IMG/VR virus record: IMGVR_UViG_3300034682_000176
Coordinates: 124,001-188,000 of that record
DNA length: 64,000 nt
Direction: 5' to 3' (one strand)
Source: a virus
Every line of letters starts with the position of its first letter. Position 1 is the first letter of the stretch. A model generated the notes under the pieces. That model was not told where the DNA came from. It ran no database searches and worked only from the letters and a program-made list of their open reading frames with translations. Position numbers and translations under genes: made by a program. Below, in pieces: positions 3,532 through 52,137 of this stretch.

Positions 3532-4041
3532 ATGATTGCACAAAACCCCATCTTCTACGTTGACATTGTCACAGGACAGTACTACGTGTTGTCCACCAGT
3601 TTGTCCATGTTTGGACTCAAGTACTTGCACATCCCAACCAAGATCATGGAAAAGGTTCATGCTGGCTTGATCCGCCGCCGCAAGAACCTGTACGCCAACT
3701 TGCAGCAGATGGACAAGAACTTCTACGTGTGGGTGGAAACCAATCCCGGCGGTGGATTTCGCCGCATTACCCCAACCAACCCCACTTACAGCTTGGATGC
3801 TGTGCGTGAAATCCGCAAGCGCTTCTTGGATGAAATTGAGCGCAACATGGTGGATGCCGTGCAGCTGGAGTACCATTTGAACCCGACCGATCTTGAAGTC
3901 AGTGTGTTTTTGGGGTATCCCGATCTGAACGGGCTTTTCAAACAAACTCTGTTGAAACCGTTCACGGGTTCGTCAACGAACTTTAAAACCCTGGACCGCG
4001 GACAGTTCTTTATTGTCGGCGAAGAAGAGGTAGCAAAATGA
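3532..4041 (+). CDS. Protein of unknown function
   Basis: A 169-residue protein, start at ATG 3532 with a GAGGTG ribosome-binding site. Its stop codon overlaps the next start by four bases (ATGA), which implies translational coupling. No recognised motif; no membrane segment. It is part of the 3157-5317 unit, whose genes are all small and unrecognised. Confidence 0.75.
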   Translation: MIAQNPIFYVDIVTGQYYVLSTSLSMFGLKYLHIPTKIMEKVHAGLIRRRKNLYANLQQMDKNFYVWVETNPGGGFRRITPTNPTYSLDAVREIRKRFLDEIERNMVDAVQLEYHLNPTDLEVSVFLGYPDLNGLFKQTLLKPFTGSSTNFKTLDRGQFFIVGEEEVAK

Positions 4042-4514
4042 CAATCATCTATTCTCAATTGGCGAAAACACCAGGCGGTAACTACTTGGTGATGCCGAGG
4101 TACGGAGCACCCAACAACAGCCAGTACTCGGTTTTCCGATTCGCTCTGAACGACGAGCAATCCAAAGCCGTCGAAGCCACGTTGGAAGACTTGCGCAAAA
4201 CGTGTTGGGATGTGGCGATCCGTCTCGGTGCTTCTGAAAAGGTGAGTTATCAAGGTAACCCCAAATATGCCTACGCCAACCTGATGTGCGACTCTTTGGC
4301 ACTGATCCATTTGTCGGTGCAAATGTTGGTCACAGATGACCTGCATCACCACCGGGTCCATTTGGTGATTCCCACCTTGGATGGTTCCAAGACTTGGGAT
4401 CTGGGTAACATGGAATCCGTGATGACTGCGGTTGACGACCCAGTCAGTCTGGAATCCCCAGATGCAGACCACTACCCAGAAGCTCCCGAAGATCCTCTGC
4501 CATGGGAGTACTAA
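4038..4514 (+). CDS. Protein of unknown function
   Basis: A 158-residue protein whose ATG overlaps the upstream stop codon. The sequence is soluble with an acidic, proline-containing C-terminus. I recognise no family. It is translationally coupled with its upstream neighbour and closely spaced to the next gene. Confidence 0.72.
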   Translation: MTIIYSQLAKTPGGNYLVMPRYGAPNNSQYSVFRFALNDEQSKAVEATLEDLRKTCWDVAIRLGASEKVSYQGNPKYAYANLMCDSLALIHLSVQMLVTDDLHHHRVHLVIPTLDGSKTWDLGNMESVMTAVDDPVSLESPDADHYPEAPEDPLPWEY

Positions 4515-4517
4515 GAC

Positions 4518-4958
4518 GTGATCTTGTTTCCCATCGAAGTGATTCATATCAAAGAACCGGACCTGCTGATCTTTGCTGACCACCAGTACCGCGACTGTGC
4601 AACAGCCTATCGGTTGCGTGAGAATCATAGCGACCGCCAGGTGTTGCAGATCCTGCGCAACTGCACAGCGACTCGTGAGCACTTTGTGGATGCCTTCCAC
4701 GACCTGCAAGCGTACATCCGGTACATTGGTTCGGACCCTTTGCTCAGCGAAGAGGCTCGTGCCAATAAAAGGGGTGGTTACTCAGCTGTCTCCATGATGG
4801 TTCATGATTGCGTGGACCAAAAGCTGTTGCTGCAAGGAGGTGTTGAAGTGGACCCAGTCACATTGACGCCGACATACTGGTTGCTGGCACGCGGTTTTGT
4901 TCAAGACGCTCGCTACGAGCTGGTGCCTTTACACAAAGCGTGGGAGGCAGGACAATGA
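4518..4958 (+). CDS. Protein of unknown function, probable GTG start
   Basis: A 146-residue protein. The best start is a GTG four bases after the previous stop codon; no good ATG or clear Shine-Dalgarno is nearby, so the exact start is uncertain. Charged and soluble, no recognised domain. The stop overlaps the next ATG by four bases. Confidence 0.65.
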   Translation: MILFPIEVIHIKEPDLLIFADHQYRDCATAYRLRENHSDRQVLQILRNCTATREHFVDAFHDLQAYIRYIGSDPLLSEEARANKRGGYSAVSMMVHDCVDQKLLLQGGVEVDPVTLTPTYWLLARGFVQDARYELVPLHKAWEAGQ

Positions 4959-8452: not shown

Positions 8453-8490
8453 CTACATGGAAAAAGGGGGAAACTCCTTTTTCCATGTAG
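8453..8490 (+). repeat. Perfect intercistronic inverted repeat
   Basis: Fifteen perfect pairs (8453-8467 with 8476-8490) enclose an eight-base loop. No T-run follows, so it is not a standard terminator; an mRNA-stability or processing hairpin is a plausible alternative. Confidence 0.7.
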
Positions 8491-13677: not shown

Positions 13678-13698
13678 CTAGGGAGTCTGACTCCCTAG
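13678..13698 (+). repeat. Near-perfect palindrome after capsid gene
   Basis: Two perfect ten-base arms (13678-13687 and 13689-13698) are separated by one base. It lies between the capsid stop codon and the terminator. It may be a protein-binding site or a transcript 3'-end stabiliser; no function is evident. Confidence 0.7.
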
Positions 13699-22513: not shown

Positions 22514-24883
22514 ATGGCAGTTAGCATCATCGAGAAAGTGCTCGGTAACAACAAGTTCTACACCGACGCTTACATCAAAGACACCATCACCCTGGTCAAA
22601 TCTATCACGGTCAAAAACGACAAAGAAGCCCGGTTGTACAACGACTATCTGAAGCAAATCCAACCCAACTTTGTAGAAGAAGATGACCGCGCTCAGTGGC
22701 AGTACTACCGACACCTGGTAGGACAACCTTACCCCACTGACCGACCCATTCTCGCCACTTCGGTGGACAATGGGGAAGAATTCACCTTCAACAAAGACAG
22801 CATGTTGGTGCACCGTCGCACCCATGAAGAGTTGCTCAAGTTCGGCCTGTACTACGAAGAGCTGGTGCGCCGTTACCCTGAGCTGGAGCTGTACATCAAG
22901 GGCGTGATCACCACCCCGCTGTTTACCAATGTGCAACAGATCATCGATGCCGAAGACTTCACGATCGTCTCTTACGCCAAACACCTGGTGGAAGAAAACG
23001 AGCACGACGTCATGTCCCAGCTGCAGTTGCGCATCGACAGCTACAAATCCACTTGGCTGATGGGTTTTTATGCCATGGTCGACAACTTGTTCTTGGCCAG
23101 CCAGTACCACATCTTGTACAACTTCCTGTGCACCAGTTTGTTGTCGATCCGTTTGGCCAATGCCAAGACCAACAACGCCCACAGCTACCACATCCGTCTG
23201 TACCTGGCCAGCCACCACTACCTGGACGATGTGTTGTTGTTCTTGACCAAATCCCAGCAATTGTTCCTGTACCGCAACATGCTGTACCTGAACAACCATG
23301 CGGGCTCCAACTTCACGTTTCAAACCCTGATCGACGTGCTCTTCAGTGAGCGCAACATCTCGGTGATCAACTACGTCTACCAGCAACGCAACACGGTCAA
23401 TAACCAAGGGCTGATGCAGTACCGCTACCGTCAAAAACTGCTCAACACCAAAAAGCTGGTGATCAACACCGCAGACATGAGCTTGGAGACGGTGGGTGCC
23501 AAAGAGCGGGATCTGGCCCCTGGCAATGGTGCGGTCTATGACTACAACCTGCCAGCCATTGATTTCCGTCACCGCAATGCGTTGTTCAGCGAACTGTTGA
23601 CCAAGGATCTGGAAACCATCTTGCTTGATGAAACCGATTCGGTCAAGTACAAACTGCTGCAAATCCTCACCGACAGCTGGGCACGCTTGTTGGTGGATGA
23701 CCGGGTTTCTTTCTTGGTTGAGATCCCAGATCCTACCAGCAGCATCAGCACTCGCATGGGTGTGCGGGACCTGTTTAAGCTGTACCTGGTGGTGCTGTAT
23801 GCGTCGCAAGGCATTTCCCTCAAGCAGTTCCCCACCTACCGCATCCAGCGCGTCTTCAAGCAAGTCTTACCTGATGTTGAAGACTTGCTCAAGGGTTGCT
23901 ACGACATGGACTCGTTGCAGCGTGACTACCTGCGTCAGTTGCTGGAGTTGGTGCCCACCTACCAGTACTACCTGACCAGTTACCAGTTTGAGCAGTACGT
24001 GACCATGGTCTACAAGCTCAACATCGGTTTGTGGACCGCGTTGTCCAACTACAGCGACATGGATACCGAAGGCCAGATGAGCTGGGCCATCAGCCAGGTT
24101 CATGAACACATGGACTTTGATGTAGACCCTGTCGAATCGGTGGACGACTTCTTGGACCGTACAGGTTTGTCCGACCCACGTGGCTACGATGCGATCCAGT
24201 TGCAGACATACCTGTTCGATATCCTGGACAATGCCTACGACAAGAAGCTGTCGTTCTTGAGCCGCTTCCAAAAGCTGCAAGACGCCTTGACCAAGGTGTT
24301 CTTCAAGTTCAACAGCTACACCGTGCAGTTGATCAACAACTACTACGCTGATGCACCATTGTTGGTGGGTGCCAAAGACACCCGCTACACCCACACGGAC
24401 TCGACGGTCTATGACTTGACGCTGGCCGCCGAAGGCAGCTTTGGACACGGCCTGATCACCGACCAGACTTCGTCCCTGTTGTCAATGCACCACCAACCTT
24501 CGGTCTCGGACATCCTCCACCATAGCAAGCTGGGCGCTGACATTGAGATTGACGGCGTGTTGGACTTTGATATCCAACACAGCTACCAAACTGACCAACT
24601 GCTGCCGCTCACCCAGCTGCTGTTGACCGAGGTGGTGTCCGCCAGCCGCAACCATGTCGATGCCACCATGCTGGATTCGGCAAAGTTCTTCCCTGCCAGC
24701 GATGTCTCGTCGCTGTCGTTCATCTCTGTTGGCGTCGCTTCCCACTTCCGAGAAGACTCGTTGTTGACCGAAAACACGTTGGCTTCTATGCCAATTAACA
24801 TTGGTTTTGCAGCACAAAACCTCTCGTCACCACCGACCCAATCTAGTGAATCCGATTTGCTGTTCTTGGCCATCAATCTTTAA
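22514..24883 (+). CDS. Large probable virion protein
   Basis: A 789-residue protein, ATG preceded by a GAAGAGG site. Predominantly helical with many Tyr/Leu residues; no membrane segment or catalytic motif seen. It is transcribed divergently from the portal gene and lies upstream of the 25948 gene, from which it is separated by a homing-endonuclease insertion. Virion role is inferred from size and neighbours. Confidence 0.65.
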   Translation: MAVSIIEKVLGNNKFYTDAYIKDTITLVKSITVKNDKEARLYNDYLKQIQPNFVEEDDRAQWQYYRHLVGQPYPTDRPILATSVDNGEEFTFNKDSMLVHRRTHEELLKFGLYYEELVRRYPELELYIKGVITTPLFTNVQQIIDAEDFTIVSYAKHLVEENEHDVMSQLQLRIDSYKSTWLMGFYAMVDNLFLASQYHILYNFLCTSLLSIRLANAKTNNAHSYHIRLYLASHHYLDDVLLFLTKSQQLFLYRNMLYLNNHAGSNFTFQTLIDVLFSERNISVINYVYQQRNTVNNQGLMQYRYRQKLLNTKKLVINTADMSLETVGAKERDLAPGNGAVYDYNLPAIDFRHRNALFSELLTKDLETILLDETDSVKYKLLQILTDSWARLLVDDRVSFLVEIPDPTSSISTRMGVRDLFKLYLVVLYASQGISLKQFPTYRIQRVFKQVLPDVEDLLKGCYDMDSLQRDYLRQLLELVPTYQYYLTSYQFEQYVTMVYKLNIGLWTALSNYSDMDTEGQMSWAISQVHEHMDFDVDPVESVDDFLDRTGLSDPRGYDAIQLQTYLFDILDNAYDKKLSFLSRFQKLQDALTKVFFKFNSYTVQLINNYYADAPLLVGAKDTRYTHTDSTVYDLTLAAEGSFGHGLITDQTSSLLSMHHQPSVSDILHHSKLGADIEIDGVLDFDIQHSYQTDQLLPLTQLLLTEVVSASRNHVDATMLDSAKFFPASDVSSLSFISVGVASHFREDSLLTENTLASMPINIGFAAQNLSSPPTQSSESDLLFLAINL

Positions 24884-24899
24884 GTAGGAGCCCTTTCAT

Positions 24900-24920
24900 A
24901 TGGAAACCGTGCATAGTTGA
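24900..24920 (+). pseudogene. Displaced 5' start of the 25948 gene (METV remnant)
   Basis: After a strong TAGGAG site, ATG at 24900 opens a six-codon frame reading MET-V-H-S then stop. The intact gene downstream starts with the same four residues, METV, at 25948. The simplest reading is that the original start and ribosome-binding site were cut off by the endonuclease insertion and the downstream copy was regenerated with the element. Confidence 0.55.
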
Positions 24921-24957
24921 CAATGTGTCAGACGGCTGCTGCCGCCAGTAGTTGCGG

Positions 24958-24988
24958 GTCAGTATGGTGTTTTAGACACCATACTGAC
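24958..24988 (+). repeat. Perfect 13-bp inverted repeat upstream of homing endonuclease
   Basis: Arms 24958-24970 and 24976-24988 pair perfectly around a five-base loop. It lies within the inserted segment, before the endonuclease start, and could terminate transcription or sequester upstream translation signals, as occurs before other phage homing endonuclease genes. Confidence 0.75.
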
Positions 24989-25042
24989 TTTCACTCTACT
25001 CAACTTAGACGGTTAAGGTTTTACTATTTAAGGGTGTTGCAA

Positions 25043-25906
25043 ATGGATAACAACTTAACACGAGACGACAAAGACAAAGTAGGCCTTTACATTGTCCGAA
25101 ACAAGACAACTAAAGAGTTCTACCTTGGGAGCGGTCGTCTGGTTCAGAGACTGAAATATCACGAACGCGAATTGACCAACAACCGTCACATAAACCACAA
25201 ACTACAGAAATCTTTCAACAAAAACCCTGATATGGAATTTGTTGCTACAATTATAGATCTAGAAGGTTTGACTGTGGAAGATAATCGAAAACTTGCGTTA
25301 GGGAGTGAGCAAGTTTTTATCGATAAATTTAAAGATAGTTCTCTATTGCTAAATTTAGCTATGAAAGTCGACAACCCTACGTTTGGGACCAATCTTTCAG
25401 CAGACCATAAAGAAAAAATTAGTAAGGGGGTTAAAGAAAGATGGAGCAATATGTCTGATGAAGAAAAGAAATCCCACAGTGAAAAAATAAGTAAGGCTCA
25501 GAACGAACACTGGTCTAAGATACCAAAAGAAGAAAAAGAAGCCAGAATAGAAACGCTTAGACATGCAAATATTGGGGTTCCTCTATCTGACAAACGTAAA
25601 AAAGAAGTAAGTGACTTCTTTAGAGGTAAAAACCTAACCTCCTCTCATAAAGAAAAGATAGGCAACGCGTTAAAAGGGAAACCTAAAAATCCCGATGCTG
25701 TTAAGAACGCAGTTAACGCTAGAAAAGAAAAGGGTTCTTACGGCCCTAATGAAAACCAGATGCGGTTATGCGGACAGCCGGTTACCGTCGATGGTGAATT
25801 TTTTGTTAGTGTGTCCGCATGTGCAAAGGCTAAGAATGTTTCTCGCCAAACAGTCATAAATAGAGTTCGTAACAACAACTTTCCTGGCTGGGCTCAAAAC
25901 TCTTAA
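25043..25906 (+). CDS. GIY-YIG homing endonuclease with NUMOD-type DNA-binding repeats
   Basis: A 287-residue protein starting at ATG 25043 (weak AAGGG site); upstream in-frame codons cross the hairpin and are unlikely coding. Residues 13-95 form the GIY-YIG domain: GLYIV (14-18), YLGSG (27-31) and the catalytic Glu in GSEQ (about 89). Four NUMOD3-like segments follow (SxxHKEKIS and similar, about 120-225), then a C-terminal NUMOD1-like helix-turn-helix (VSRQTVINRV). The gene is visibly A/T-richer with different codon use from all neighbours, marking recent acquisition. It presumably cuts an uninvaded allele near the start of the adjacent structural gene. Confidence 0.9.
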   Translation: MDNNLTRDDKDKVGLYIVRNKTTKEFYLGSGRLVQRLKYHERELTNNRHINHKLQKSFNKNPDMEFVATIIDLEGLTVEDNRKLALGSEQVFIDKFKDSSLLLNLAMKVDNPTFGTNLSADHKEKISKGVKERWSNMSDEEKKSHSEKISKAQNEHWSKIPKEEKEARIETLRHANIGVPLSDKRKKEVSDFFRGKNLTSSHKEKIGNALKGKPKNPDAVKNAVNARKEKGSYGPNENQMRLCGQPVTVDGEFFVSVSACAKAKNVSRQTVINRVRNNNFPGWAQNS

Positions 25907-25947
25907 CTTGCACACTTATTGATTAAAACTTGGAAAGAGGTCTTACT

Positions 25948-26781
25948 ATGGAAACAGTCACCAGATCGATTTATGCAGCCCACCTGCAGACGTGCAAACT
26001 CCTGAACAAACCCTTCACGGTTTTGGAGAACTCGACGCTGAACCAAAAGTTCAACGTCTACCCGGAAGAGCAACCGGCTGTCAACGCTTACCCGAATCTG
26101 TCCGGCATCACCATTGGCAACAAGGGCGCCACGTACGACATCGGTCAAGGCAACTACGTGTTGACCACCCCAATCCCTCACCTGGCACGCCACGCCAGCC
26201 TGTACAACCACATCCCGTTTGTGGTGCGCCACATCACCAACGATCTGACACCGGCCGAGCGTCTGATGTACCGCCTGCGTGTACCACTGCAAATCGGTGG
26301 TGAGAAGTACTTTGCGTACTACATGCGTGTGCTGGACCTGAACACGGTGGTACCAACGGTGGAGCTGCGCAACGTCAGCGACGGTGTGATCACCAACACC
26401 CCGTTCACTCCCGAGCAGTCCGACCTGGCGCCTGTCCACCCAGTCATCACCAACAACGGTCTGAACACGACCGACGGCGACTACCTGGTCTCCACGGCCA
26501 AGATGGTGTTCACGCTCAACCAGCAAGACATCGTCAACATCCGCGAAGCCTGCCAGATCCTGTACGGCGACCCACGCTACGCCGTGATCAACGAAATCGG
26601 TATCTGCACAGGTATTGACAAAATTGTTTCTGGCCAATTGGGTGGTTCGACCATCAACTACACTGAAAGTGTGGTGACCCAACTGGCAGCCTTCCTGTCC
26701 CAGTATCACGCGCTGACTGCCAGCACAGCTGAAGTCAAGATCGGCTTGAATGTCGGTAGCGTGGAAGCCCTGATCGTCTGA
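25948..26781 (+). CDS. Probable virion protein adjoining homing-endonuclease insertion
   Basis: A 277-residue protein beginning METVTRS at ATG 25948, with an AAAGAGG site; a TTG six codons upstream is also open. Beta-rich and soluble, no enzyme motif. Homing endonucleases favour conserved, essential genes, and the truncated METV copy at 24900 shows its original 5' end. GC content and codon use return to the phage norm at this gene. A structural role is inferred. Confidence 0.72.
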   Translation: METVTRSIYAAHLQTCKLLNKPFTVLENSTLNQKFNVYPEEQPAVNAYPNLSGITIGNKGATYDIGQGNYVLTTPIPHLARHASLYNHIPFVVRHITNDLTPAERLMYRLRVPLQIGGEKYFAYYMRVLDLNTVVPTVELRNVSDGVITNTPFTPEQSDLAPVHPVITNNGLNTTDGDYLVSTAKMVFTLNQQDIVNIREACQILYGDPRYAVINEIGICTGIDKIVSGQLGGSTINYTESVVTQLAAFLSQYHALTASTAEVKIGLNVGSVEALIV

Positions 26782-26804
26782 TCTTCTTGCCTGTAAAACA
26801 GGGT

Positions 26805-26842
26805 CTCCCAGTGGTCTACAAGGACCACTGGGAGATTCTTTG
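26805..26842 (+). terminator. Rho-independent terminator
   Basis: A perfect 12-base-pair stem (26805-26816 with 26823-26834) with a six-base loop and a T-rich tail follows the 277-residue gene. Confidence 0.85.
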
Positions 26843-26867: not shown

Positions 26868-27416
26868 ATGTTGCTGAGTATCGATCCTGGTGTGAACAAT
26901 TGCGGTTTGAGTGTGGCGGATACAAACCAGCAATTCAAAGTGCTTTTGACCCACAACGTCAAAAACGCCCGCAAGTTCACGGACGCTGAAAAAGTGTTGG
27001 AGGCTGAGTACAACACCCGGGTGGTGAAGGTCTTTGCCATCCATAACAAGATCTTGGAAGTCTTGGAGACCTACCCGGAGATCAATGACGTTGCCATCGA
27101 AGCACCGTTTTACAACCACCTCACTCCGCAAGCTTACGGCTCGCTGCTGGAAGTGATTTCGGTGATCAAGTACAACATCTTGATCCCACGCAAGTTGCCG
27201 TACCGGATGCTGGAGCCCATGCTGGTCAAGAAGCTGTTTGCCAACAAGGGCATGGCCAAGAAAGAGATCATGAAGCAGTTCCTGGTTGCCAAAGCGGCAT
27301 CCGGTGAGATCTTGCTTCCGGCTGACATTGAAACCATGACCGAGCACGAGATCGATGCAGTGGCCATTGGGTTTGTCCATCATCTGTCTACTATTCAAGA
27401 AGGAGTGAAGCCATGA
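26868..27416 (+). CDS. ruvC: RuvC-like Holliday junction resolvase
   Basis: A 182-residue protein with the RuvC/RNase H fold signature: SIDPG with Asp6 and the NCG that follows, VAIEAPF with Glu78, and EHEIDAVAIG with Asp163 as the C-terminal metal ligand. It would cleave branched DNA during replication or before packaging. Length matches bacterial RuvC. It has a GGAAGG site and its stop overlaps the i-spanin start (ATGA), making an operon of recombination and lysis genes. Confidence 0.88.
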   Translation: MLLSIDPGVNNCGLSVADTNQQFKVLLTHNVKNARKFTDAEKVLEAEYNTRVVKVFAIHNKILEVLETYPEINDVAIEAPFYNHLTPQAYGSLLEVISVIKYNILIPRKLPYRMLEPMLVKKLFANKGMAKKEIMKQFLVAKAASGEILLPADIETMTEHEIDAVAIGFVHHLSTIQEGVKP

Positions 27417-32592: not shown

Positions 32593-32607
32593 CAAGTCGG
32601 CTGTCGA

Positions 32608-32648
32608 GGGTGACGAGTTGAACTCGTCACCCTTCCTCTTTCCCTTCC
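32608..32648 (+). terminator. Rho-independent terminator
   Basis: A perfect 10-base-pair stem (32608-32617 with 32623-32632) with a five-base loop and a pyrimidine-rich TTCCTCTTTCC tail. Confidence 0.8.
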
Positions 32649-40023: not shown

Positions 40024-40026
40024 GCT

Positions 40027-40076
40027 ACAGATCCACACTACCGTAACTGGTAGTGTGGATCTGTATTTATTTTGGT
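40027..40076 (+). terminator. Rho-independent terminator
   Basis: A perfect 14-base-pair stem (40027-40040 with 40051-40064) with tail ATTTATTTT. Confidence 0.88.
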
Positions 40077-43209: not shown

Positions 43210-43245
43210 CTCTAAGGGGCTAAAGCCCCTTAGAGCTATATTTTC
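43210..43245 (+). repeat. Perfect 11-bp hairpin, terminator-like
   Basis: Arms 43210-43220 and 43225-43235 flank a TAAA loop and are followed by CTATATTTTCC on the plus strand. It resembles a terminator but no gene on the plus strand ends before it. Confidence 0.7.
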
Positions 43246-43358
43246 CAATAAGAACGCAAATACTTTTATCGATTCAAAAAAGCGTAAAAGTGACGACAAA
43301 AGTGACAGTTTCTGCGACATAGCGTTAGACAGTGAATAAGACCGTTTGAGAGCCATCT

Positions 43359-43392
43359 CCACTCCAGTACACGCTTTTGTGTACTGGAGTGG
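43359..43392. repeat. Perfect 14-bp inverted repeat
   Basis: Arms 43359-43372 and 43379-43392 pair perfectly with a GCTTTT loop; no T-run follows on either strand. Confidence 0.75.
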
Positions 43393-43487
43393 ATGAGCTT
43401 CTTTACACAGACAAACAACCATCAAAGAAAAGAAACAAAGAAAGCTAGGACGATAGTCCAAAGCGGTATTAACAGCGTGTTATGGGC

Positions 43488-47184: not shown

Positions 47185-47232
47185 CTCTCTACAGATGGCT
47201 TTGGCTGTCTGTAGAGAGGTATATTTTTTACA
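47185..47232 (+). terminator. Rho-independent terminator
   Basis: A perfect 11-base-pair stem (47185-47195 with 47208-47218) with a GTATATTTTTT tail. Confidence 0.85.
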
Positions 47233-47269
47233 AAACTGTGAGGACACCGCATCCTTTAAGTTTAGATGT

Positions 47270-47286
47270 GGGTATACCACACCTGT
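47270..47286 (+). promoter_or_regulatory. Possible promoter element (GGTATACCACAC)
   Basis: It shares TATACCACAC with the strong element at 40078 and lies about 45 bases before the ATG at 47318, just after a terminator, but lacks the upstream ACATA half. It may be a degenerate member. Confidence 0.35.
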
Positions 47287-47317
47287 GTTTGTAACCGTTC
47301 GTAAAAGGAAAGTCATA

Positions 47318-47740
47318 ATGACTAAGTTCCGTGTTTGGCTGTACTCGTTGTTTGAGCCTGTCCTGCTCAACTTTCTGATGCTGACCTTTCCTGGTGTCCG
47401 CCAGGATACGGTCCACTCTCTGATCACAGGGGCATCGGAAGAGCCTGAGCAAAAACCACGTGGTGGTGATTTGCAATCGATCTACAACAACGCTCGCAAT
47501 CCGCAAGCGTCGTTTCGGATCTTTCACCTGCGGGTCAAGTACTTTGGATGGGATATCAACCACGCGTTGAAAACACCGGATCGCAAAGATGAGATCCGTG
47601 TGGCTGGGTACGTCTACAATCTGCGGGAAATTTTCAACAACGCTCCCATGAAGAAGATCAGCTACCACACGTTCCACCGACGTGTGACTCAACAAGGCTG
47701 GGACCCTCGTAAGGCGTTGGAAACTCCTCCAAACAAGTAA
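47318..47740 (+). CDS. Two-module helix-turn-helix-like repeat protein
   Basis: A 140-residue protein; ATG 47318 has an AAAAGGAAA site, and upstream in-frame codons run into the terminator. Residues 1-26 are hydrophobic. Two copies of a repeated module follow: 51-87 and 100-137, each shaped as a helix with YN or FN, a short turn, then xxFxxRVxxxGWDxxxALxTP. The same module recurs in four genes at 51379-54012. The module resembles helix-turn-helix segments of phage homing nucleases, so DNA binding is a reasonable hypothesis. The amino-terminal hydrophobic stretch is unique to this member. Confidence 0.75.
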   Translation: MTKFRVWLYSLFEPVLLNFLMLTFPGVRQDTVHSLITGASEEPEQKPRGGDLQSIYNNARNPQASFRIFHLRVKYFGWDINHALKTPDRKDEIRVAGYVYNLREIFNNAPMKKISYHTFHRRVTQQGWDPRKALETPPNK

Positions 47741-51378: not shown

Positions 51379-52137
51379 GTGAGAGCACCGGTTAATCAAG
51401 AGCTGATTAAAAGCTATCATCAATTCAACACCAAGAACGTGCCGCTGAGCGTGTTCTTGATGCGTGTCAACAATCTGCGCTGGGACGTCAAAAGAGCTGG
51501 CGAAACCCCTTACGTACCACGAACGGGCGGGCTTGTTGCACAATACAAAGAACTCTACGATCGCATCGAATCTCCAACTGTGGGGTTCGATGTGTTCTGC
51601 CGCCGAATGCGCAACGGCCGTGATGTCGAAGAAGCAGCCAAAGCTCCGAAGATTGAACCTTCTGAGCTGTACAGCTACTACCACCAATACCAAGACAAAC
51701 CAGCGGTAGGGTACACCACCTTCTTTAACCGCGTGGTGTCTTTGAATTGGGAGCGCATCAAAGCCATCACCACACCACCGACGCGCAAAATGAAACCGCG
51801 CAAAGAGGTACGTTCCAACACGTACCTGGCCATGTGGTTCAACAAAAACATTGAACGCGCCAAAGTCGATTGGAGCTGTTTTTCCCAACGTGTCTTCAAA
51901 GGCGGGTGGGACAAAGAAAGAGCTCTGACGACACCTTCCATGGCCGAGAATGAATCTCAGCTGCGCGCCTTCTACAACCAACACCCTGACTGTCCAGTCA
52001 ACTACATGACGTTCCACCGTCGTGTGTATGCCCTGGGGTGGGATATGCAGCGTGCAATCTCTACCCCAGTTCGTGACAACACCCGTTCGCAGCGTGAGCG
52101 CGTCGTTGTGAGTTCCCGACCATCCAAGTACAACTAA
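51379..52137 (+). CDS. Five-module helix-turn-helix-like repeat protein
   Basis: A 252-residue protein with a GTG start at 51379 after a strong AAAAAGGAGT site. Nearly the whole chain is five modules of about 45 residues, each with a helix, a short turn, xxFxxRVxxxxWDxxxAxxTP and a variable linker. The fourth and fifth are the clearest (FSQRVFKGGWDKERALTTP; FHRRVYALGWDMQRAISTP). The second is degenerate (RMRNGRDVEEAAKAP). The C-terminal 25 residues are basic. It forms a tight cluster with the next three genes (gaps 16-23 bases). Sequence-specific DNA binding is a hypothesis. Confidence 0.75.
   Translation: MRAPVNQELIKSYHQFNTKNVPLSVFLMRVNNLRWDVKRAGETPYVPRTGGLVAQYKELYDRIESPTVGFDVFCRRMRNGRDVEEAAKAPKIEPSELYSYYHQYQDKPAVGYTTFFNRVVSLNWERIKAITTPPTRKMKPRKEVRSNTYLAMWFNKNIERAKVDWSCFSQRVFKGGWDKERALTTPSMAENESQLRAFYNQHPDCPVNYMTFHRRVYALGWDMQRAISTPVRDNTRSQRERVVVSSRPSKYN

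Follow-up and report, generated by a model that had tools for sequence, protein, structure and literature searches.

A GIY-YIG endonuclease gene probably inserted within the 5′ end of a conserved gene of a phiKZ-related phage, with a probable replacement start

A free-standing GIY-YIG homing endonuclease gene appears to have been inserted into the 5′ end of a conserved gene of a giant phiKZ-related phage, and the gene would survive through a replacement start. We assign this reading, insertion and replacement start taken as a whole, a probability of about 0.8. The locus lies in a window of 64,000 nucleotides, the whole stretch of DNA that was analysed, taken from a virus record of 224,810 bases. 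Comparison with relatives indicates that the left-hand start is the native one, that the relatives are uninterrupted at this site and that the insert consists of a single endonuclease gene. Homing endonucleases are thought to spare their host by residing in introns, in inteins or at intergenic sites; the endonuclease studied here would instead sit inside the coding start of a conserved gene. If general, such a layout would offer these elements a further route into phage coding sequence, would provide genes with new N-termini and leaders, and would mislead gene callers on starts and operons. The features of the locus are listed in Table 1.

Table 1. Features of the locus (window coordinates)
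Feature	Position	Strand	Description
Upstream gene	22514..24883	+	789 aa, PHROG 3222 family, function unassigned; phrog_3222 E 1.8e-114; intact to stop
Probable native leader of displaced gene	24884..24899	+	SD AGGAG 24886-24890; resembles TAGGAG leaders of L005/L006
Putative stranded native 5′ end	24900..24920	+	ATG GAA ACC GTG CAT AG, then TGA; METVHS-stop, stop 24918-24920
Putative inserted segment	24917..25947	+	Missing from 80/80 related loci; one copy in the 224,810-base record
Perfect hairpin, 13 bp, terminator-like	24958-24970/24976-24988	+	Of a kind with other hairpins of the window
Predicted GIY-YIG homing endonuclease	25043..25906	+	287 aa, MDNNLT...; N-terminal GIY-YIG, possible NUMOD3-like repeats, possible C-terminal I-TevI-like DNA-binding region
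Putative new leader before replacement start	25907..25947	+	SD GAGGT 25937-25941; resemblance to relatives' leaders not above shuffles
Putative replacement start codons	25948..25959	+	ATG GAA ACA GTC (METV), synonymous with stranded ATG GAA ACC GTG
Displaced gene	25948..26781	+	277 aa, PHIKZ139 homolog; DUF7208 (PF23838), Pfam E 1.9e-86; phrog_3315
Perfect hairpin, 13 bp, 3′ of displaced gene	26804..26835	+	Probable native end of two-gene unit

The phage was placed among the phiKZ-related phages because of the matches of its PHIKZ139/DUF7208 gene and because the upstream gene lies directly 5′ of that gene, as it does in the relatives L005 and L006, in Burkholderia phage FLC9 and in many others. 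The displaced-gene protein matched 272 phage records, e.g., phiKZ, PhiPA3, 201phi2-1 and FLC9, at less than 60% identity, and members of the family are annotated as virion structural proteins in several relatives. Chimallin gave no match at E 0.001 in the 224,810-base record when the phiKZ protein was used as the query without a proper control, a result that proves nothing about a phage nucleus. Directly 3′ of the displaced gene, a RuvC-like Holliday junction resolvase is encoded on the + strand (26868-27416; phrog_159, E 6.4e-20), and a similar ORF follows the homologous gene in L005 and L006.

The displaced-gene protein and its relatives were used to obtain 78 loci from IMG/VR, and 80 related loci were examined altogether. 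None of the 80 had an endonuclease of the window type in the 3.5 kb that precede the DUF7208 gene; the upstream neighbourhood matched P0002 in 39 of them. The closest relatives found were L005 and L006, with 63% and 61% protein identity, respectively. In both, the upstream gene runs straight into the DUF7208 gene through TAGGAG, 6-7 nt and ATGGA, with the stop TAG inside TAGGAG. The junction reads ...TTATAGGAGTTTTTT-ATG in L005 (protein MESLTRTIF) and ...CTTTAGGAGCCATTAA-ATG in L006 (protein MDSVQRTIY), and the upstream gene ends with ...SSEPDLLFLASNL in L005, ...SSDDQLEFLALNL in L006 and ...SSESDLLFLAINL in the window. The left junction of the window runs ...LLFLAINL-stop, then GTAGGAGCCCTTTCAT, then ATGGAAACCGTGCATAG, and it is this left side, not the right side, to which the junction of the two relatives corresponds. 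In a comparison of the leaders only, with the coding sequence of the upstream gene excluded, the left leader resembled those of the relatives above shuffles, at the modest values of p 0.0045 (L005) and 0.02 (L006), and the right leader did not (p 0.15 and 0.29, respectively). The resemblance between the left and right leaders was weak (p 0.063). A search of genome contigs and an exact search with the junction DNA found no insert-free allele of the same phage and no closer relatives. Since only two close relatives were available, at 61-63% protein identity, the exact ancestral junction cannot be read from them. The alignment with endonuclease-free relatives, which the first-pass annotation had named as its own check, thus gave an uninterrupted gene in L005 and L006, with a leader of the left type running straight into it.

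The METVHS-stop frame behind a strong ribosome-binding site at 24900 and the intact downstream gene beginning METVTRS at 25948, on which the first-pass annotation was built, were both found as described. On the left, AGGAG is followed by ATGGAAACCGTG..., and the full stretch, ATGGAAACCGTGCATAGTTGA, encodes METVHS-stop; the stop of the upstream gene ends at 24883, 16 nt before the ATG. Leaders of the AGGAG type are frequent at gene starts within the window. The fragment occupies the position at which the gene starts in L005 and L006, and it ends at the codon for the Arg at position 6 (CAT AG|T), which is invariant in two small alignments. Past codon 4 no likeness to the displaced gene was found (p 0.57-0.89), and the idea of a longer decayed gene copy 3′ of the left METV was dismissed on the same values. 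METVHS is the N-terminus of the PHIKZ139/DUF7208 family (M-[ED]-[ST]-[VL]-x-R), not an independent conserved peptide, the alternative that had been named as a possible refutation. The junction of the relatives, the leader match and a resemblance of the fragment that ends at about codon 4 together indicate that the left start is native and that the insertion occurred at about codons 4-6, in agreement with the earlier proposal that the element landed just inside the gene. The left edge of the insert falls at about 24911-24917, and the right edge can be placed no finer than the opening codons of the gene that follows.

The GIY-YIG assignment of the encoded endonuclease was borne out by matches to phrog_314 (homing endonuclease; E 1.9e-19), to TIGR01453 (group I intron endonuclease; residues 12-280, 49.5 bits, E 5.3e-13, just below the cut-off of 56.05) and to the I-TevI catalytic domain 1mk0 (E 4.6e-4). 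The GIY (GLY), YIG (YLG), Arg and His positions are retained, and visual inspection adds the Glu (LGSEQVF) and Asn (LLNLA) of I-TevI. The Pfam GIY-YIG match was weak and below the cut-off, and the DNA-binding modules gave weak matches only (NUMOD3, E 0.098; I-TevI_DNA-bd, E 0.073). The AlphaFold model had a pLDDT of 43 and was left unused. With start and stop codons of its own, no fusion to the host-gene frame and no Rfam intron match under settings that detected a positive control, the endonuclease gene is free-standing, outside any self-splicing intron or intein. AGA accounts for 7 of its 17 Arg codons, versus 1 of 10 for the displaced gene and 0 of 33 for the upstream one. The segment had been described as A/T-rich with a 13-bp hairpin; the hairpin is present and about 24995-25930 has 37% G+C versus 50-58% around it, but the stretch that holds the hairpin (24911-24994) is not A/T-rich. 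An RNA structure hiding the ribosome-binding site of the endonuclease was considered and dropped, as the fold was no better than shuffles (z −0.23).

The right-hand start, ATGGAAACAGTC, opens the intact gene, the longer stretch ATGGAAACAGTCACCAGATCG encoding METVTRS. The two METV copies differ synonymously, at ACC/ACA and GTG/GTC. Several readings of this start were tried and rejected. A foreign origin of the right leader by its SD type was dropped, since the upstream gene also uses GAGGT. A foreign origin of the second start by codon usage was likewise dropped: the first ten codons of the displaced gene have a low GC3 and a single AGA, neither of which exceeds what other gene starts show, and the AGA at codon 6 also occurs in L005 and L006. 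Only about 12 coding nucleotides are comparable between the two starts, and codon evidence on a foreign donor is ambiguous. The phiKZ late promoter is TATG, with G as the transcription start (PMC4666361); as a cause of the repeated TATGGA it was discarded, because the A and T of the start codon would fall outside the RNA, and L006 has no TATG at that site.

It has to be considered whether the segment is instead a group I intron with an endonuclease, removed from the mRNA by splicing, with an incidental second ATG. The name of TIGR01453 fits such a reading, as does the best-covered match in a phiKZ-like phage, JA29_026 of Dickeya phage JA29, which is carried by a group I intron with a thymidylate synthase fragment on either side. 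The stretch of 160 nt ahead of the endonuclease ORF also folds well (24884-25043, z −4.3), but this fold is mostly the hairpin. The Rfam model Intron_gpI gave no match up to E 5 over 24500-26500 and none in either flank up to E 10, whereas by the identical method both halves of the JA29 td intron were detected (E 4.7e-5 and 1.6e-3). The conserved group I catalytic core P3-P8 was accordingly not found in the window by Rfam with JA29 as the control. At the gathering thresholds Rfam misses even the JA29 intron, so our first negative for the window meant little, and E-value thresholds were used. Moreover, the gap between the endonuclease stop and the second ATG is only 41 nt, too short for P7/P8/P9, and by inspection METV-x-R cannot be recovered in frame from any U-ending 5′ exon combined with a G-ending intron. 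We therefore consider splicing very improbable, and this way of refuting the first-pass annotation fails. The JA29 thymidylate synthase intron itself (L086, 2834-3922) is split by its endonuclease ORF and is found by Rfam only with E-value thresholds; group I introns of this kind are likely under-annotated.

An ordinary intergenic insertion upstream of an intact native start, with METVHS as a chance ORF, would resemble most free-standing endonucleases of T4, which are intergenic (PMC2988022). Start repeats of this size do arise elsewhere by chance: when repeated start codons were sought blindly near 30 other phage endonuclease matches, three of these reached 10 of 12 nt, and the repeat alone is consequently modest evidence. 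None of those three encoded four identical residues, as the window pair does. The repeat goes beyond chance because the left copy also sits at the start site of the relatives and has a leader like theirs, which the right one has not, and this makes an intergenic insertion improbable. In the window, TATGGAAACNGT occurs at the two METV starts only, with 0 expected by chance, a figure to be read as that of a pattern picked after the fact. Among 30 other phrog_314 matches in phiKZ-like records there was no clear case of a comparable layout, in a search that has a chance background. The agreement of the two copies in TATGGAAACNGT and the weak likeness of the leaders could also mean that the same insertion made a short target duplication, the left copy of which decayed later. 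This is a sub-variant of insertion with a replacement start, compatible with its first part, and a duplicated and a carried-in start would give identical anatomy. A duplicated leader should match, however, and the right leader matches neither the left one nor those of the relatives above chance. We regard the duplication as rather unlikely; the synonymous differences and the leaders, which do not match beyond chance, favour a start borne by the element.

Under insertion with a replacement start, a free-standing endonuclease gene of the I-TevI/Seg type would have entered the phiKZ-family gene within its 5′ end, about codon 4-6, leaving the native leader and opening codons stranded to the left of the insert as a dead METVHS-stop fragment. 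To the right, a synonymous METV start behind a new ribosome-binding site would still allow the full-length protein without splicing. We infer from the sequence that the enzyme cuts endonuclease-free alleles near the gene start and that the segment is then copied in during repair. The likeliest course, though conjectural, is that the element came with the homologous 5′ end of a related phage, the left side being joined near the break and the right side recombining inside the gene. The sequence offers no positive support for a donor origin of the second start, as GC3 and the AGA at codon 6 do not distinguish it. That the cassette carries a recoded 5′ end of its target gene (ribosome-binding site and first codons), and so enters coding sequence with neither an intron nor gene breakage, is a tentative proposal to which we give slightly less than an even chance.

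Among known systems, the closest in layout are fungal mitochondrial mobile endonuclease ORFs (atp6, atp9, cox2, nad3), whose replacement C-termini depart from the stranded native ones mostly at synonymous sites (PMC3630166). In Allomyces atp6 and Glomus atp6, atp9, cox2 and nad3, as here, a non-intronic endonuclease interrupts a gene, a second gene end is present and the native end is stranded (PMC3630166). The corresponding gene end that occurs twice in the phage is the METV start, the left one being native by comparison with the relatives. The fungal endonucleases are LAGLIDADG enzymes, or GIY-YIG in atp9, and in the fungal cases it is the C-terminus that is replaced, the new copy being fused to the 5′ part (PMC3630166); in the phage the 5′ end with its ribosome-binding site would be replaced, and only about four codons are repeated. 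The layout has been described before mainly in fungal mitochondria, there at gene tails, and the phage case may be viewed as its 5′ mirror image. The Seg endonucleases of T4 (segA-segG) share with the window enzyme the GIY-YIG domain, the free-standing state and the orientation of their neighbours, and possibly the NUMOD/I-TevI-like DNA-binding parts (PMC2988022). Those listed in the review sit between genes (PMC2988022), whereas the phage element would lie in coding sequence with the start replaced. Endonucleases in or at coding sequence are also known from mobE in nrdA of Aeromonas phage Aeh1, mobA in T4 gene 60 and seg43 at gene 43, but these split the protein into two working pieces (PMC2988022), and here one full-length protein is retained. 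PhiPA3 gp210 likewise lies inside a conserved gene of a phiKZ-related jumbo phage, but it is an HNH enzyme in a putative group I intron of an RNA polymerase gene (PMC11620839). JA29_026, one of three annotated phage records that matched the window endonuclease (26% identity over 94%), is also a GIY-YIG protein, intron-borne where ours is free-standing. In the searchable literature, outside which most subscription journals fall, we found no case of a replaced gene start in a phage.

The hairpin near 24958 had been described as a content of the inserted segment, but it is not specific to the element. The window contains about nine sites with perfect hairpins (9-17 bp, loops of 3-8 nt, mostly without a long T run), and several lie just 3′ of stop codons (1225-1255, 8453-8490, 13678-13698, 26804-26835, 32607-32633, 40026-40065), for which reason the one near 24958 is no evidence for the element; others are at 43210-43235 and 43358-43393. 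In L005 and L006, hairpins likewise follow the homologue of the displaced gene. They look like ordinary terminators or RNA-processing elements of the phage, of a type shared with L005 and L006. Transcription of the upstream gene may stop at the hairpin near 24958, ahead of the endonuclease; as a terminator, this hairpin would leave the endonuclease and the displaced gene in need of a promoter inside the insert. Endonucleases that carry promoters of downstream genes are known from T4 (PMC2988022).

Elsewhere in the window, two genes on the + strand (47195-47740 and 51460-52137) matched phrog 1065, the former additionally matching the HNH endonuclease family phrog_3377; both are possibly further selfish endonuclease genes. 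An ORF on the − strand (3786-4628) without a PHROG match uses AGA, a codon rare in this genome, for 6 of its 22 Arg codons and is possibly a recent acquisition or a non-gene.
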